Below are positions 3,156 through 63,980 of a DNA stretch of 64,000 nt, in pieces; the first letter of the stretch is position 1; each line of letters starts with the position of its first letter. Both the position numbers and the translations under genes were made by a program. The notes beneath the pieces are model-generated. The model ran no database searches and was not told the origin of the DNA. It was given only the letters and a program-made list of their open reading frames with translations. The DNA comes from Pseudomonadota bacterium (GTDB lineage: Bacteria > Bdellovibrionota_C > UBA2361 > SZUA-149 > DAOLCO01), in the NCBI GenBank assembly GCA_027487795.1, contig JAIYCX010000015.1, positions 62,001 to 126,000 on the forward strand. The letters run 5' to 3'.

Positions 3156-3482
3156 ATGTTGGTTTTGTCAAGGAAGAGTGAAGAAGCTATCTCGATTGGC
3201 TCAGTTGCTAAGATTACTTTTGTTATTAAAGGTAATCGTGTGGCTTGTATTGTTTCGGCTCCTTCTTCGGTTAGTATCCGTCGGGGTGAATTGGGAGCTA
3301 CAAGTAGCAGCAACGCTGGTTCTGATATTACAACTTTGGTACTTTCCAGAAAAGATTCGGAAACCATTGTATTTGATGCGTTAGGGATAACGCTAAAAAT
3401 TTGTAAGATCTCAGGAAACAGAGTCAATGTTGGTATTGATGCGCCTCGCGAGATATCGGTTAAAAGACTTGAATTGATCTAA
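3156..3482 (+). CDS. csrA: Tandem-domain CsrA-like RNA-binding regulator
   Basis: This 108-residue protein contains two CsrA domains in one chain: residues 1-46 (MLVLSRK ... SAPSSVSIRRGE) and 59-108 (TLVLSRK ... IDAPREISVKRLELI), joined by a Ser/Ala-rich linker. CsrA is normally ~60 residues and works as a strand-swapped dimer binding GGA motifs in mRNA leaders. Both halves keep the Leu and Arg equivalent to L4 and R44 of E. coli CsrA (L4/R43 and L63/R104). The first half has lost the usual G-x-x-A-P context and looks diverged; the second half is canonical. It lies 1.75 kb upstream of flagellin genes with GGA-rich leaders, so flagellin control is a natural but unproven inference. Confidence 0.85.
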   Translation: MLVLSRKSEEAISIGSVAKITFVIKGNRVACIVSAPSSVSIRRGELGATSSSNAGSDITTLVLSRKDSETIVFDALGITLKICKISGNRVNVGIDAPREISVKRLELI

Positions 3483-4975: not shown

Positions 4976-5044
4976 GTTTGAATTGCTAGTAGTTAGTAAA
5001 TTCATTTTAGGTTTTTCTTTTTGGCAAATTTTTTGTCGGTTGGT
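4976..5044 (+). promoter_or_regulatory. 69-base leader block identical in both flagellin genes
   Basis: These 69 bases are identical to 8844-8912 in the second flagellin leader, while flanking leader sequence differs by substitutions and indels. No reading frame supports a protein. It is probably a structured or protein-binding part of the flagellin mRNA leader, or has been homogenised by gene conversion. Confidence 0.5.
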
Positions 5045-5068: not shown

Positions 5069-5217
5069 AAAAAACAGGAAGGATAGGAGGATAGAAGGGG
5101 GGAGTTTAGTTTGTTTCTTTCGGACACGCAACCACTACCTCTCTCGGCCTCACTTTAAGCACTGCTGCCACTTCTTCTTTTTTAATTTCTCCTATCCTCC
5201 TATCCTTCCTGTTTTTT
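5069..5217 (+). promoter_or_regulatory. GGA-rich inverted-repeat leader of flagellin 1
   Basis: A perfect 26-bp inverted repeat (5069-5094 with 5192-5217) encloses a 97-base loop and ends in eight T, only 8 bases before the GGAGG at 5227-5231. The left arm carries GGA at 5077, 5081, 5086 and 5089, another is at 5101, and the ribosome-binding site itself contains one; GGA is the CsrA core motif. The right arm holds CCTCC, which could pair with GGAGG. It could act as an attenuator (stem plus U-run), as a ribosome-site switch, or as CsrA sites. Confidence 0.55.
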
Positions 5218-5235: not shown

Positions 5236-7089
5236 ATGTCTAGACTAACTATCAACTCCAACATCCCATCCTTAAACGCCCAGCGTAGTTTATCTAACGC
5301 CACTAAGAAACTTGGCGAAAGTTACACTCGTCTTTCTTCTGGCCTACGAATAAATAAAGCATCAGATGATGCTGCGGGATTGTCTATTTCAGAATCTCTA
5401 AAAGCAGACACTCGTTTATTCAATCAAGGAGTAAGAAATCTAAATGATGGATTAAGTGTTTTAAATATTGCAGATGGTGCTTTGGGTGAATTATCAAATA
5501 TAGTAATTCGACTAAACGAACTTGCAGAACAGAGTGCAAACGGCACTTTAGGAAATAAGCAACGTCTTGCTTTAGATCAGGAAGCACAAAGTTTATCTAA
5601 GGAATATAATAGAATTGCGCGTAGTACTGAGTTTAACGGTAGAAAAATATTTAATGGAGATTATGGTGATTTAAGTTTAGTTGCGGGAGGAGGACGTGAG
5701 ACATTGATAGTAGAGGATTTGGGAGGTGCTGTTGGGAGCGGATCTTTCAAATCAAATATCTCATTTACTACAAGTTTTCAATCTTCTGAAACCATAGCTT
5801 CTGATTTAAATAATGACGGTATGCTAGATTTACTAGTAGCAAAAATAGCAAGCCCGGAGATAAATATATTTTTAGGTAATGGTAACGGTACATTTAAGGC
5901 TGTACAAACATTTGCCTCAACTAGCGATATGCAATCAATGACATTGGGAGATTTTAATGGAGATGGAATTTCTGATATAGCTTCTAGTGATAGTACTACA
6001 AATTTTATAAGTATATTTTTTGGAAATAGTAATGGTAGTTTTAAAACAAGGCTATCTTTTGTTACAAATTCTACTTCGTTATCTGTTGATGCTGAAGATT
6101 TTAATGGCGATGGTATTTTAGACTTAGTTTCTGGAAATACTTCTACTAATGCTCTTAGCGTATATTTAGGAAACGGAAATGGGACTTTCAAAGCTAGAAA
6201 CTCACTTGCTACGGGCCCTAACCCAGGTGATGTCAGTATTGGGGATTTTAATGCAGATGGGATTTCAGACTTAGCTTCTATCGATATATTAGTTGGAAGT
6301 ATTAGCGTATATCTTGGTAATGGTAATGGTAGCTTCAAAAGTAGAACGTCTTACGTTAATTCTGGCGACCCATACTCTCTTCGTATAGGGGATTTTAATG
6401 GAGATAGTATTTTAGATTTAGTAACAGCTGATAATACTTCAAATAGCTTGAGTATTTTTATTGGTAATTCGAATGGTACCTTTAATTCAAGACGCTCCTT
6501 TGGAACAATTGATGGTGTAATAACAGTAGAAGTTGGAGACTTTAATGGTGATGGAGTCTCTGATTTGGTGGCAAATGATTCTACTAGTGGTGGAATAGCT
6601 GTATTTTTAGGTAATGGTGATGCTAGTTTTAAAGCATCACAATCATATGCGTATGATGTAACTTACAATCTCGTAGTCGGAGATTTTAATAATGATGGAG
6701 TCTCTGATTTAGTTAGTGCAGATTTTATGAGTGTTGGTATCTTCATAGGTAATTCAAATACTGGTGTAGCTGCATTACAATCTTTCTCACTTAAAACACA
6801 ATCTGCTGCACGCAATTCAATGTCGTATCTCCGAAAAACTTTAGAACGAATCGGAGAACAGCGCGGTCACATCGGTGGTTTTCAGTCTCGTGTAGAATTT
6901 GCAACTAATAATTTACAAACCAGTGCATTATCATATCAAGAAGCAAATTCAAGAATAACAGATATTGATGTAGCAGAAGAATCGTCACGTCTTGCTGCGT
7001 CCCAGATATTACAACAATCAGCAGCAAGTATTTTAGCGCAGGCTAACCAGCAACCGCAACTAGTTTTGAACCTGCTACGGAACCTATAG
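5236..7089 (+). CDS. Flagellin with seven FG-GAP/VCBS beta-propeller blades (paralogue 1)
   Basis: This 617-residue flagellin starts with canonical D0/D1 (about 1-150: SRLTINSNIPSLNAQRSL, LSSGLRINKASDDAAGL, FNGRKIFNGDYG) and ends with canonical D1/D0 (about 515-617: DIDVAEESSRLAASQILQQ, ILAQANQQP). Between them are seven repeats of ~49 residues, each with a Ca-binding DxNxDGxxD loop, at residues 190, 239, 288, 337, 386 (DFNGDSILD, G to S), 435 and 483, alternating with GNxNGxF turns. Seven such blades match a closed integrin-type propeller, predicted to project from the filament surface where D2/D3 normally sit. The ATG at 5236 has GGAGG 4 bases upstream. Confidence 0.93.
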   Translation: MSRLTINSNIPSLNAQRSLSNATKKLGESYTRLSSGLRINKASDDAAGLSISESLKADTRLFNQGVRNLNDGLSVLNIADGALGELSNIVIRLNELAEQSANGTLGNKQRLALDQEAQSLSKEYNRIARSTEFNGRKIFNGDYGDLSLVAGGGRETLIVEDLGGAVGSGSFKSNISFTTSFQSSETIASDLNNDGMLDLLVAKIASPEINIFLGNGNGTFKAVQTFASTSDMQSMTLGDFNGDGISDIASSDSTTNFISIFFGNSNGSFKTRLSFVTNSTSLSVDAEDFNGDGILDLVSGNTSTNALSVYLGNGNGTFKARNSLATGPNPGDVSIGDFNADGISDLASIDILVGSISVYLGNGNGSFKSRTSYVNSGDPYSLRIGDFNGDSILDLVTADNTSNSLSIFIGNSNGTFNSRRSFGTIDGVITVEVGDFNGDGVSDLVANDSTSGGIAVFLGNGDASFKASQSYAYDVTYNLVVGDFNNDGVSDLVSADFMSVGIFIGNSNTGVAALQSFSLKTQSAARNSMSYLRKTLERIGEQRGHIGGFQSRVEFATNNLQTSALSYQEANSRITDIDVAEESSRLAASQILQQSAASILAQANQQPQLVLNLLRNL

Positions 7090-7269
7090 GGCTCTCCGAT
7101 ACATGGGTGGGGATGCGTAGTTGCGGGCTAGGAGGCCAGCAACCCAGCCTAGTGCTCTCCTTACTACGAGAATTGTAGGCTCGCCTAGCAGGGTTTGGGG
7201 TGGAGCGTTGGGCTGGGGCTAGGAGGCCAGCAGCCGCAATTAGTTCTCAACTTACTACGAGAGCTTTAG
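7048..7269 (+). repeat. Three tandem ~90-bp units carrying alternative flagellin C-terminal tails
   Basis: The last 14 codons of flagellin 1 (7048-7089, QQPQLVLNLLRNL then stop) recur at 7137-7178 (QQPSLVLSLLREL, stop) and 7228-7269 (QQPQLVLNLLREL, stop). Spacing is 89 and 91 bp. Spacers are GC-rich and similar to each other, both ending in GGCTAGGAGGC. Base changes among tails are mostly synonymous. The second copy is out of frame with the gene, and neither has a start codon, so they are silent as they stand. They could be recombination donors or the 3' remnants of lost flagellin genes. Confidence 0.8.
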
Positions 7270-7368
7270 GGTAAACATAGCATAAATTATACCCTTCCAT
7301 TTTTATACAATCGATGTTAATAATAGGAAGGGTTTAATTTGTAGATATTTAATTAAAAGTTCTTATTT

Positions 7369-8550
7369 ATGCCACACTTAAGAGAAAGGTTTATTTTAAA
7401 AACTATAGAAAATAAGCTAAAATTCGCACCAGTCTTTTCCCTTCAGGGGGCGAGGCAAACGGGTAAGAGTTATTTAGCAAGAGATGTAATAGCTAAGAGA
7501 GTAAAAAAATCTATTTATCTTACATTTGATCAAAAATCAGTAAGAACATTTGCAACAAAAAGACCCGATACTTTTTTAGAAAATTATGATGACTACAAAC
7601 CAATAATTATTGATGAAGCACAGAAAGTGCCGGATATTTTTGATGCTATAAAGTTTAGAGTTGATCAAAAACGAGTTTCTGGAAAGTTTTTTATTTTAGG
7701 ATCTACGGAGTTTTCCAAATTAACTAATATTAGAGAGTCTTTAACTGGACGAATGAGTAGAGCAAAGTTATACCCTTTAACAATCAGAGAGAGTTTGTCA
7801 AAAAACTCAAGCTCTAGAACCTCAAGTTTCTATCTACAAAATTCTACTGACGTAACTAGAGCAGAGTTTCTGCGTTATCTTGAAAATGGTGGAATGCCAG
7901 GAATATTTACTATTAAGAATAAAACAGAGAAAAATCTACTTTTGCAAGATTGGATATCGTTAACAGTAGATAGAGATGTTCACACATTTGAAAGAAAAAT
8001 TATTAGCTCTGAATTAATCAGAGAAATATTAGAGCAAATAGCTAAGCTAGAGCAGCCTAACTTAAATAATATTGCAAAGGCAATTAAAATTGATACTAGA
8101 AGAATACGCTCCCATCTAGAAGTACTAGAAACCTTATTTGTTATTAACTCATTACCGGCACATAAATCCGGGACAGGAAAAATATTATATTTTATACTGG
8201 ATTGTGCTCTTGCTGCTGTGCTTGGAGCTAGTTTTGAAAAAATAATGTGGACTGCTGTTTTAAATGAACTCTTAGCAAAGAGGAGTTATTTTGATAATAG
8301 TAATTACAAACTTTTTTATTATCGAAATACAAAAGGCAGCATAGTAAATTTTTTAGAAGAGAATGCTAAGGGTGATATTAGTTTACTAAAAATTATTACT
8401 GAAGAAAAATATGATGAGAGAAATCTGGAAATATTATCAGCTTACCAAAAAAAAGTAACAGGTAAGGTTAGTTTATACGCAATTGCACCGTTTGAAAGTT
8501 TAGGTAGTAAGGAACTTGTGAAAATTTATCCTTGGGAAGCTATTGCATAG
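7369..8550 (+). CDS. AAA_14/DUF4143 ATP-binding protein
   Basis: A 393-residue P-loop ATPase of the AAA_14 (PF13173) plus DUF4143 (PF13635) type. Walker A GARQTGKS is near residues 27-34 and Walker B PIIIDEAQKVP near 78-88, then GSTEFSK and LTGRMSRAKLYPLTIRE, which are characteristic of the family. A C-terminal part holds the winged-helix-like and nuclease-fold-like DUF4143 region. These proteins are widespread, mobile and of unknown cellular role. It sits alone between the two flagellin genes, each of which has its own promoter, so a flagellar function is not implied. No strong ribosome-binding site is visible before the ATG. Confidence 0.85.
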   Translation: MPHLRERFILKTIENKLKFAPVFSLQGARQTGKSYLARDVIAKRVKKSIYLTFDQKSVRTFATKRPDTFLENYDDYKPIIIDEAQKVPDIFDAIKFRVDQKRVSGKFFILGSTEFSKLTNIRESLTGRMSRAKLYPLTIRESLSKNSSSRTSSFYLQNSTDVTRAEFLRYLENGGMPGIFTIKNKTEKNLLLQDWISLTVDRDVHTFERKIISSELIREILEQIAKLEQPNLNNIAKAIKIDTRRIRSHLEVLETLFVINSLPAHKSGTGKILYFILDCALAAVLGASFEKIMWTAVLNELLAKRSYFDNSNYKLFYYRNTKGSIVNFLEENAKGDISLLKIITEEKYDERNLEILSAYQKKVTGKVSLYAIAPFESLGSKELVKIYPWEAIA

Positions 8551-8621
8551 TATGAACAAATTCCTACAGTAACCCCTTATTTTTATTGATTAAATATTAA
8601 TCAATAAATCCCTAAAACTAC

Positions 8622-8649
8622 TTAAGTTATTGTAATGATTCAACGATAA
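8622..8649 (+). promoter_or_regulatory. Sigma-28-like promoter of flagellin 2
   Basis: TTAAGTTA at 8622-8629 and AACGATAA at 8642-8649, again 12 bases apart; the same block as at 4793-4820 with a slightly better -35 match. The start codon lies about 750 bases downstream because of leader length plus an inserted element. Confidence 0.55.
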
Positions 8650-8843
8650 TATGTAGACGTAGGGGGAAGTATACTCTGCGTGAAGGAAGTTTCTGCAAGG
8701 TTTCAAGGAGTATAGAAATCTTTGTAATACGGATGTTTTATACAAGGAGATTGGCTTAGGTTAGTTTTGTTGTGGTGGTAAAAATACTAGAAGTAAAATT
8801 TTAGTTGTGCGGTGAGGATGTTTCTTGCCAAAGTTGGTTTGTA

Positions 8844-8912
8844 GTTTGAATTGCTAGTAGTTAGTAAATTCATTTTAGGTTTTTCTTTTTGGCAAATTTT
8901 TTGTCGGTTGGT
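8844..8912 (+). promoter_or_regulatory. Second copy of the invariant 69-base flagellin leader block
   Basis: Identical over 69 bases to 4976-5044. The leader on either side (for example 8656-8840 against 4827-4975) is clearly diverged, which makes this block stand out. Confidence 0.5.
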
Positions 8913-8942
8913 TAAGTGTTGTCTTTGTTTGGGGAGAAAAAG

Positions 8943-9131
8943 CAGGAAGGTTAGGAGGATAGAAGGGGGGGAGTTTAGTTTGTTTCGTTTGGAAGAAGTG
9001 GCAGCAGTGCTTAAAGCGATCAGAGACACAAACATGGCCTGCCACTCGCTCTGGAACATACCCCCTCCCTCACTTTAAGCACTGCTGCCACTTCTTCTTT
9101 TTTAATTTCTCCTATCCTCCTATCCTTCCTG
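8943..9131 (+). promoter_or_regulatory. Nested inverted repeats in the flagellin 2 leader
   Basis: The outer arms 8943-8962 and 9112-9131 (20 bp, one mismatch) correspond to the 26-bp repeat of flagellin 1 and again carry GGA motifs (8945, 8954, 8957, with another at 8970). Inside is a perfect 25-bp inverted repeat, 8992-9016 with 9073-9097, around a 56-base loop. In flagellin 1 only the right inner arm survives (5153-5177). A GGGGAGGAGG ribosome-binding site follows at 9145-9154 but is separated from the start codon by the palindromic element. Confidence 0.6.
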
Positions 9132-9154
9132 TTTTTTTTAATATGGGGAGGAGG

Positions 9155-9407
9155 TTCTGCTCCATCCCAACAACTCAAAGAGCCCTCCGCCGAGCTATGC
9201 AGAATTTATTCTGCGAAGCCCGGAGTGGTGTGGCAAAGGGGAGGGCGTCCTGCTTCGTCCACGCAAAAACGATTACGCAGGATTTGCTTACTTAGATCAG
9301 AACCTGTTCTGCTACGTCCCAACAACTCAAAAACCCCTCCACCTAACTATGCAGAATTTATTCTGCGTAGCCCGGGGTGGTGTGGCAAAGGGGAGGGCGT
9401 AGCAGAA
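9155..9407. repeat. Two GC-rich palindromic elements inserted between RBS and ATG of flagellin 2
   Basis: Copy B spans 9306-9407 with perfect 10-bp ends TTCTGCTACG / CGTAGCAGAA and a central hairpin around GCAGAATTTATTCTGC. Copy A (9155 to about 9260) has the same order but an imperfect right end. A 40-odd-base linker separates them. Compared with flagellin 1, where the ATG follows 4 bases after GGAGG, the pair interrupts the leader precisely at this point; the last base of copy B is the A of the ATG. Copy B carries GGAGG at 9392-9396, 10 bases before the ATG, which can replace the displaced site. Confidence 0.75.
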
Positions 9408-11263
9408 TGTCTAGACTAACAATTAACTCCAACATCCCGTCCCTAAACGCTCAGCGCAGTTTAGCAAATGCTACAAAGAAACTTGGCGATAGCTACACTC
9501 GTCTTTCTTCAGGCCTGCGCATTAACAAAGCCTCAGACGATGCAGCGGGGTTATCAATCTCTGAATCTCTAAAAGCTGACACACGTTTGTTTTACCAAGG
9601 AGTTCGAAACCTAAATGATGGAGTAAGTTTATTAAACATTGCAGATGGTGCTTTAAATGAATTAACTAATATCGTTACAAGATTATCCGAATTAGCAACT
9701 CAAAGCGCAAATGGAACTTTTAGTAACAAGCAAAGACTTGCACTTGATCAAGAAGCGCAGAGTTTATCAAAAGAATATAATAGAATTGCGCGTACAACAT
9801 CCTTTAATGGGCGAAATTTATTTGATGGCGATTTTGGATTATTAAGTCTAGCAGCAGGAGGTGGAAGTGAAAGCTTAATTAGTAGCGGACTTGGAGGTAG
9901 TATCGGTGATGGGACTTTTCAAGCTAGGATAAGTTACGAAACTGTAATAGCTTCGCAATCAATATTATTAGATGATTTTAATGGAGATGGGATAAAAGAT
10001 TTGGTGACAGCAGGTACAAATAGTATTGGTCTAATGATAGGTAATGGAGATGGAAGTTTTAAAACCAACAATACTTTTACAGCTTTAAATTCTGGTACTA
10101 TTGAAGCTGGTGATATTAATGGAGATGGCTTTCTTGATATTGTATCGTCTTTATCAGGATCAAATAGATCTTTTTCATTTTTTTTAGGTAACGGTAATGG
10201 GAGTTTTAAAGCTGAAGTTAGCATAAGGGGACCTAACGATGGAGGGGTCGATATCGAACTCGCTGATTTTAATAATGATGGAAAATTAGATATCTTAGAA
10301 TCCGGTACGACAGGTAATGCTACTGCGACTTTATACCTAGGTAATGGAAATGCAACATTTCAAAGAGGTAACGGTATCGGTAGTGCAGGAGGATCAAATG
10401 GTCGAAAGGTGACAGTAGGAGATTTTAATAATGACGGTATTTTGGATATTATTAATACTCAACAAAATTTTATTGATACATACATGGGTAGAGGAGATGG
10501 TACGTTTACCCGTATTAGCAGCTTTGCTGTCGCATCAAATTCAAATTTTTCAGATACTATATTATCAGACATAAACGATGATGGTATACAGGATTTAGTA
10601 TTTGCAAGTAGTGCCTCGATTGCTATAGCACTAGGTAATAATAACGGAACATTTAGAGTTGTTAATAATTTTTCTAATAGTGGAAATACTTTTGGATTAA
10701 ATATTGGTGATTTCAACGGAGATGGAAAAAAGGATATTGTAGCTTCTGCAAACGGCGGCCCTTTAAATATTCTCATAGGTAACGGTGATGGAAGTTTTTT
10801 ACAAAGAGTATCTTATGCTACCACAACTTCGCCGACTAATGCCATATTAGAAGATTTCAACAAAGATGGCGTTTTAGATTTGCTTCATGGGGATAACTTT
10901 GGTTTTATAAGTGTTTTGTTTGCAAATTCTAATAATGGTATTGGCTCTCTCCAATCATTTTCTTTAAAAACCAAAGCAGATTCTTTGGATGCTATGGATT
11001 ATTTTGAATTTTCTTTGTCAAATCTGTCTAAACAACGCGGTCAGATCGGGGCATTTCAATCTAGATTAGATGTCGCAACTAGTACGCTTCAAACTAGTTC
11101 ACTAAATTATCAAGAAGCAAATAGTAGAATAACAGATATTGACGTAGCAGAAGAATCATCACGCCTTGCTGCGACCCAAATACTACAACAATCTGCCGCA
11201 AGTATTCTAGCTCAAGCTAACCAGCAGCCAAGATTAGTTCTCTCATTGTTGGGGGATTTATGA
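9407..11263 (+). CDS. Flagellin with seven FG-GAP/VCBS beta-propeller blades (paralogue 2)
   Basis: This 618-residue paralogue of the gene at 5236 has nearly the same first ~145 and last ~90 residues but a strongly diverged centre. Its seven Ca-loop motifs start at residues 190 (DFNGDGIKD), 236 (DINGDGFLD), 287, 339, 388 (DINDDGIQD), 435 and 483, again alternating with GNGxGxF turns, so the seven-blade count is preserved. The C-terminus reads NQQPRLVLSLLGDL. The ATG at 9407 is chosen because MSRLTINSN aligns with flagellin 1; an in-frame GTG at 9377 would add ten residues read from the palindromic element. Expression may be altered by that insertion. Confidence 0.92.
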   Translation: MSRLTINSNIPSLNAQRSLANATKKLGDSYTRLSSGLRINKASDDAAGLSISESLKADTRLFYQGVRNLNDGVSLLNIADGALNELTNIVTRLSELATQSANGTFSNKQRLALDQEAQSLSKEYNRIARTTSFNGRNLFDGDFGLLSLAAGGGSESLISSGLGGSIGDGTFQARISYETVIASQSILLDDFNGDGIKDLVTAGTNSIGLMIGNGDGSFKTNNTFTALNSGTIEAGDINGDGFLDIVSSLSGSNRSFSFFLGNGNGSFKAEVSIRGPNDGGVDIELADFNNDGKLDILESGTTGNATATLYLGNGNATFQRGNGIGSAGGSNGRKVTVGDFNNDGILDIINTQQNFIDTYMGRGDGTFTRISSFAVASNSNFSDTILSDINDDGIQDLVFASSASIAIALGNNNGTFRVVNNFSNSGNTFGLNIGDFNGDGKKDIVASANGGPLNILIGNGDGSFLQRVSYATTTSPTNAILEDFNKDGVLDLLHGDNFGFISVLFANSNNGIGSLQSFSLKTKADSLDAMDYFEFSLSNLSKQRGQIGAFQSRLDVATSTLQTSSLNYQEANSRITDIDVAEESSRLAATQILQQSAASILAQANQQPRLVLSLLGDL

Positions 11264-41489: not shown

Positions 41490-41589
41490 GAGGGAAATTA
41501 AAAAACGTCTTTAGTATTAATCCTAACTATATTTACTTATTAAAAAAAAGACTATTAAAATTCAAGTATCGGCAACTTAAAGGGTATGC

Positions 41590-41741
41590 TCTGCGTCGTC
41601 CCAACAAACCAAAGCCCCTCCGCCGGACTATGCAGAATTCATTCTGCGTCGTCCCAACAAACCAAAGCCCCTCCGCCGGACTATGCAGAATTCATTCTGC
41701 GTAGCCGGGGGTGGAGTAGTGGGAGGATGGGCGAAGCAGAA
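41590..41741. repeat. GC-rich palindromic element with internal 53-bp tandem duplication
   Basis: The left half (from TCTGCGTCGTCCC) is present twice in tandem with a period of 53 bp (41590 and 41643). The central hairpin CTATGCAGAAT/ATTCTGCGTAG and the right arm, ending in GCGAAGCAGAA at 41741, follow. Order and end sequences match the elements at 9155-9407 and 63881-63980. It lies ~70 bp upstream of the thiolase gene and stands out by its high GC. Confidence 0.7.
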
Positions 41742-63880: not shown

Positions 63881-63980
63881 CTCTGCGTCGCCCCAGCAAC
63901 CAACCCGCGACCCGCCTGGCTATGCAGAGTGGAATTCTGCGAAGTCTGGAAGGGTAGGGAGGAGAGGGGACGAAGCAGAA
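63881..63980. repeat. GC-rich palindromic element abutting the tmRNA 3' end
   Basis: The element runs from CTCTGCGTCGCCCC to GGGGACGAAGCAGAA with the central hairpin CTATGCAGAGT...ATTCTGCGAAG, the same layout as at 9306-9407 and 41590-41741. Its left end directly follows the tmRNA discriminator base, where CCA might otherwise be encoded. Confidence 0.7.

Follow-up and report, generated by a model that had tools for sequence, protein, structure and literature searches.

Which fold stands between the flagellin ends of two genes, F1 and F2, and what could it do on a flagellar filament? Both genes lie in the 64,000-nucleotide window analysed here (the whole stretch of DNA), from a genome of an uncultured, Bdellovibrionota-like phylum. 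The initial annotation had described normal D0/D1 ends and, in place of D2/D3, seven DxNxDGxxD repeats, which it took for a closed propeller like that of integrin alpha. The end domains (Flagellin_N and Flagellin_C), the loop positions and the FG-GAP_3 matches bore out the first two points. Two AlphaFold2 models, Foldseek, and the repeat number and Ca2+ ligands across the phylum agreed with the third, at the level of prediction.

The domains of F1 and F2 were assigned with Pfam. Flagellin_N matched residues 6-142 (E = 8.6e-37 in F1 and 7.7e-40 in F2) and Flagellin_C matched about residues 532-615 (6.6e-21 and 2.1e-21). FG-GAP_3 lay between them with 190.9 bits in F1 and 158.7 bits in F2 against a cut-off of 26.9 (E values in Table 1), and all three matches were well above the Pfam cut-offs in both proteins. 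The propeller was inserted at the canonical site, after the D1 hairpin; in the N-terminal half of the F1 model, helices at residues 10-35, 37-101 and 107-130 were followed by a hairpin at 146-160. A hook-associated FlgL identity was rejected, as F1 and F2 reached 200-214 bits with the best flagellin models and 93-97 bits with FlgL (cut-off 127). Judged from sequence, the domains at both ends and this better fit make F1 and F2 true flagellins. A frame error splitting either gene, a possibility raised by the initial annotation, or a chimera was looked for and rejected; both open reading frames (ORFs) are uninterrupted and internal to a 127-kb contig. For F2, an alternative GTG start at 9377 would add 10 residues. 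The ATG at 9407 was preferred because the GGGGAGGG motif lies upstream of it and the GTG sits inside a repeat insert.

The AlphaFold2 models were built from a 36-sequence alignment. The mean predicted local distance difference test (pLDDT) value was 83.6 for F1 and 81.4 for F2, with most propeller blocks at 80-93. The D0 ends of both models were of low confidence, which is common for flagellin monomers. In Foldseek searches, D0/D1 retrieved flagellins and the insert retrieved seven-bladed propellers, including LGI1, BBS1/BBS9, PVL/PAL lectins, CRTAC1 and a KICSTOR chain that we take to be ITFG2. The target-normalised template modelling score (TMt) with the LGI1 EPTP domain (5y2z) was 0.76 for F2 and 0.81 over 347 columns for F1. 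BBS1 and BBS9 gave 0.74-0.75 with F1, and the PVL/PAL lectins gave 0.54-0.57 with F1 and F2. By sequence alone, the F2 insert matched CRTAC1 (7.5e-7) and PVL lectin (2.5e-4) in a phmmer search of the PDB. Each blade ends in a GDGTF motif, and one further copy was found before blade 1 in 10/10 of the genome's own paralogues; this strand would complete blade 7 as its outer strand, in the velcro closure usual for propellers. From the superpositions and this motif, the insert is predicted to form a closed seven-bladed ring. The fold and its location on a flagellin are well supported; the function is what we infer.

The calcium loops were located at residues 190, 239, 288, 337, 386, 435 and 483 in F1 and at 190, 236, 287, 339, 388, 435 and 483 in F2, a spacing of 46-52 residues, and Dx[DN]xDG calcium ligands were present in the blades of both. 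Among 76 distinct homologues, 70 had seven canonical loops, five had seven repeats including one decayed loop, and one had six. The six-repeat exception (L014) is a paralogue in the window's own genome; its contig is 3.7 kb long, and an assembly collapse could account for the missing repeat. Across 36 proteins, the three loop aspartates at each of the seven sites were invariant (one at 90% or more). Because these triads are near-invariant, the propeller blades very likely bind Ca2+.

Blades within one protein were more alike than blades between paralogues (0 of 500 shuffles), reaching 71% identity in paralogue L019, and blade position was not conserved. Therefore, the blades turn over through duplication or recombination inside the gene, with the count staying at seven. 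We read this fixed count despite turnover as selection for a closed ring.

The genome of the window (3.2 Mb in 71 contigs, 91% complete, 3% contaminated) contains 20 ORFs with Flagellin_N. Ten of them are complete propeller flagellins, so the two described by the initial annotation are both real but belong to a larger family, one member of which has six repeats. Ordinary flagellins of about 290 amino acids (aa) account for four, and one of these is truncated at a contig end. A further one has a PD40-type propeller, which belongs to a different and unrelated propeller class, three carry another insert (proteins of about 440 aa), and the last two are a FlgL and a 268-aa flagellin-like protein. 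Among the ten paralogues, identity was 89% in the N-terminal part, 43% in the propeller and 79% in the C-terminal part. The median ratio of nonsynonymous to synonymous divergence (dN/dS) was 0.056, 0.44 and 0.12, respectively. On these regional values, the propeller is the diversifying part of the protein, yet it is still constrained. The idea that paralogues had recently exchanged or converted entire propellers found no support, as synonymous divergence was alike in the N-terminal half (0.61) and the propeller (0.64); it was lower only in the first ~60 codons. An orphan flagellin C-terminal fragment with a 102-aa open frame (L027:5694-5999) was also observed, perhaps a pseudogene or a cassette.

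The distribution was surveyed with a full-length profile at E 1e-80 in 46 genomes of the phylum, covering one class and 31 genera. Matches were found in 19 of the 46 genomes and 17 of the 31 genera, with up to 23 in one genome (G020); a few of these matches are fragments or proteins of the propeller-only kind, among them the giant protein of the window's genome described below. Named members included UBA2409, SZUA-149, LJ_bin-2050, SSF28, Co_bin.265 and HKST-UBA bins, the hits of several of these coinciding with those of phylum members, and tandem arrays of at least four propeller-flagellin genes exist (L032). The phylum probably corresponds to GTDB class UBA2361 (Bdellovibrionota_B or _C), an assignment with which two papers agree (PMC13200544, PMC11080526). 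Outside the phylum, no intact flagellin-propeller-flagellin protein was found among the best three candidates per genome in about 720 genomes (about 337 + 387) at E 1e-75; the matches there were propeller proteins without flagellin ends. None was found in the plasmids or phages searched. As far as tested, the propeller flagellins seem restricted to one phylum. In a D0/D1 tree of 107 flagellins, the ordinary flagellins formed one clade (support 1.0), and the four type labels needed 5 changes compared to about 29 when shuffled. The ten propeller flagellins of the genome formed one clade (0.98), adjoined by its PD40 and other-insert flagellins. The simplest reading would be an old propeller fusion inside the phylum, followed by expansion within separate lineages, with the middle domain exchanged on occasion.

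No description of a flagellin with an FG-GAP/VCBS or other beta-propeller domain was found in the literature searched, deposited architectures being outside that search, and to this extent the novelty proposed by the initial annotation stands. Sialidases are six-bladed propellers. Flagellins annotated with sialidase had already been counted: in Eckhard et al. (PMC5595980), 61 domain types are counted in flagellin variable regions, including vWFA and sialidase, and the printed top-ten table lists Sialidase and not FG-GAP. Flagellinolysins likewise carry a folded functional domain in the hypervariable region, but theirs is a metallopeptidase; no peptidase domain was found in F1 or F2 with Pfam. 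The giant flagellins of marine gammaproteobacteria (PMC6248924) also have an enlarged surface domain and thicker filaments; they exceed 1000 aa, without a recognised enzyme domain, and no propeller is described in them.

Calcium blades are known from integrin alpha, PVL lectin and PilY1 (PMC3123361). PilY1 of type IV pili is likewise a Ca2+-binding seven-bladed propeller on a motility or adhesion filament, but it is pilus-associated, has one listed Ca2+ site and is not the polymerising subunit. Integrin alpha, CRTAC1 and ITFG2 share the FG-GAP seven-bladed ring, with DxNxDG calcium loops in integrin alpha, whereas they are animal proteins of unrelated architecture. The PVL/PAL-type fungal lectins (2bwr, 4up4, 5mb4) are likewise seven-bladed propellers with calcium blades, but they are free lectins rather than parts of a flagellin. 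The NCBIfam model for propeller lectins matched only a related protein (L098), far under its cut-off.

For the function, the leading proposal is ligand binding: propellers of this class are often ligand binders, and it is in the propeller that the paralogues diverge. F1 and F2 would be true flagellins whose D2/D3 are replaced by a Ca2+-binding FG-GAP propeller, forming a diversified ligand-binding coat and a high-avidity adhesive organelle besides swimming; we give this reading as a whole about an even chance. The chain would be exported unfolded, cytosolic Ca2+ being low, and the propeller would fold around Ca2+ outside the cell, at the filament tip. Thousands of copies would then coat the filament with diversified lectin- or integrin-like binding faces, whose specificity would differ among paralogues, so that the filament could work as an adhesive or ligand-binding organelle in addition to swimming. 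Several points weigh against this proposal. A purely structural role is common among FG-GAP propellers. No ligand-site residues were identified in the propellers, the sugar-site residues of the lectins not having been compared. The propeller dN/dS of 0.44 indicates relaxed purifying rather than positive selection, with synonymous sites near saturation. The flagellum is sheathed in Bdellovibrio; a sheathed filament would hide the propellers and make ligand binding unlikely. For magnetotactic Bdellovibrionota, a flagellum 53 nm thick has been reported (PMC13200544). The filament may also consist mostly of the ordinary flagellins, which coexist with the propeller flagellins.

Much of this evidence is also compatible with a mechanical coat or with antigenic variation. 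As a mechanical device, neighbouring propellers would join in an outer layer, stabilised by Ca2+, that makes the filament thicker and stiffer or tunes its supercoiling, with no external ligand. In other bacteria, dimerisation of outer domains is reported to modulate motility (PMC8931119), and giant flagellins thicken filaments (PMC6248924). The Ca2+ ligands are the most conserved feature of the propeller, and a width of ~5 nm would roughly match the subunit spacing at that radius. However, ten paralogues with propellers only 43% identical are unneeded for a purely structural coat, and we regard this explanation as possible but rather unlikely. Alternatively, the divergent propellers may persist because a variable filament surface helps against flagellotropic phages, predators or immunity, with binding playing no part. 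The conserved ends with variable middles, the multicopy families, the blade turnover within proteins and the presence of PD40 or different inserts instead of this middle domain between related ends are all in keeping with this idea. Strict conservation of ring size and Ca2+ sites speaks against it, as do the lack of evidence of switching and the even synonymous divergence along most of the gene, which argues against recent cassette swapping; we consider it improbable. The proteins might also not be filament components at all, the genes being silent or their products being adhesins secreted through the flagellar export route. Insertion elements do lie in the leaders, for example between the Shine-Dalgarno (SD) sequence and the ATG of F2, and the orphan C-terminal fragment could point the same way. 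Strong conservation of D0/D1, a common promoter-like element and the absence of stops in the window genes make this very unlikely.

The features of both genes and their leaders are listed in Table 1. The -24/-12 element is common to other propeller and insert flagellins of the genome, and it resembles the sigma-54 consensus. The predicted RNA fold of the F1 leader hairpin had -59.8 kcal/mol (z -3.7). In the conserved flagellin leader, the long hairpin closes with a U-run right before the SD and looks like a terminator or attenuator upstream of the start codon. The repeat insert of the F2 leader ends in its own GGGGAGGG, so that translation could survive the insertion. Inserts of this kind also lie ahead of other flagellins in the genome, and the repeat, which resembles repetitive extragenic palindromes or miniature inverted-repeat transposable elements, was also seen in the window at 41589-41741 and 63968-63980. 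Downstream of the F1 stop, at 7125-7179 and 7216-7270, two extra copies of the last ~13 codons (QQPSLVLSLLREL and QQPQLVLNLLREL, each with a stop) sit in a repeat unit of approximately 91 nucleotides (nt), which seems to insert at the gene end and re-create the C-terminus. The window also contains a tandem CsrA gene (3156-3482, +) encoding two CsrA domains in one 108-aa protein. Control of the leaders by CsrA was dropped as a candidate, as ANGGA motifs showed no enrichment in most of the family's leaders.

Table 1. Positions of F1, F2 and their leader elements in the window.
Feature	Position	Strand	Basis or remark
-24/-12 (sigma-54-like) element TGGCAAATTTTTTGTC, F1 leader	5022..5037	+	Sequence
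F1 leader hairpin, 29-nt arms 5069-5097 / 5189-5217	5069..5217	+	Directly before SD (GGGGAGGTGG) and ATG
F1, propeller flagellin, 617 aa	5236..7089	+	ORF, Pfam, AlphaFold2 model
F1 D0/D1 N-terminal half (residues 1-164)	5236..5727	+	Flagellin_N 6-142; model
F1 predicted seven-bladed FG-GAP propeller (residues 165-510)	5728..6765	+	FG-GAP_3 4.6e-57; Foldseek
F1 C-terminal D1/D0 (residues 511-617) and stop	6766..7089	+	Flagellin_C 532-614
-24/-12 element, same as in F1, F2 leader	8890..8905	+	Sequence
F2 leader hairpin, arms 8937-8965 / 9109-9137	8937..9137	+	Sequence
Palindromic repeat insert, two 95-nt copies, TTCTGC...GCAGAA	9154..9406	+	Between ancestral SD and F2 ATG
F2, propeller flagellin, 618 aa (ATG start)	9407..11263	+	ORF, Pfam, AlphaFold2 model
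F2 D0/D1 N-terminal half (residues 1-164)	9407..9898	+	Flagellin_N 6-142
F2 predicted seven-bladed FG-GAP propeller (residues 165-510)	9899..10936	+	FG-GAP_3 5.2e-47; PDB phmmer; Foldseek
F2 C-terminal D1/D0 and stop	10937..11263	+	Flagellin_C 535-615

Other flagellins with inserts were also recorded. PD40/WD40-like propeller flagellins with repeats of about 54 residues occur at L021:8526-10586 (+) and L077:2408-4483, the latter broken by a stop codon. The insert flagellins of about 440 aa (L019:2590-3924, -; L022:7275-8597, -; L023:1689-3014, +) have an insert without a convincing Pfam match. Flagellins of about 470-480 aa (L051:2270-3709, -; L057:3977-5419; L058:3980-5398; L061:3983-5389) have fewer, wider-spaced FG-GAP-like loops (3 detected) and possibly represent another type of surface domain.

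The same genome encodes a giant protein of 4585 aa with roughly 80 FG-GAP repeats (L026:2209-15963, -). Its N-terminus resembled flagellin D1, with a Pfam match below cut-off (E 0.002) and an hhalign probability of 89% (E 2.5e-6), and its C-terminus gave no match to the flagellin profile. Relatives of 372 to 3898 aa (L090-L102, L106) occur across the phylum with FG-GAP repeats or other propeller-like domains; some scored better on Flagellin_N (2.6e-9 in L102), and several have a related C-terminus in common. The family lacks the D0 N-terminal stretch. These proteins may be flagellum-exported adhesins or filament-associated proteins. A bolder and unlikely extension would make the filament a phylum-wide display organelle, with up to about 20 Ca2+-folded propeller flagellins of distinct ligands per lineage and giant multi-propeller proteins delivered by the flagellar route, catching prey, hosts or particles.

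These results extend the list of domains found in flagellins by a predicted Ca2+-binding seven-bladed propeller, a fold known from the heads of integrin alpha and from some lectins. It occurs in multicopy families that are specific to lineages and span an entire uncultured phylum. The results suggest Ca2+-triggered folding as a way in which a protein that forms a large closed ring could be exported through a channel as narrow as that of the flagellum. Furthermore, they give concrete, expressible proteins with which to ask whether a flagellar filament can be an adhesive organelle.

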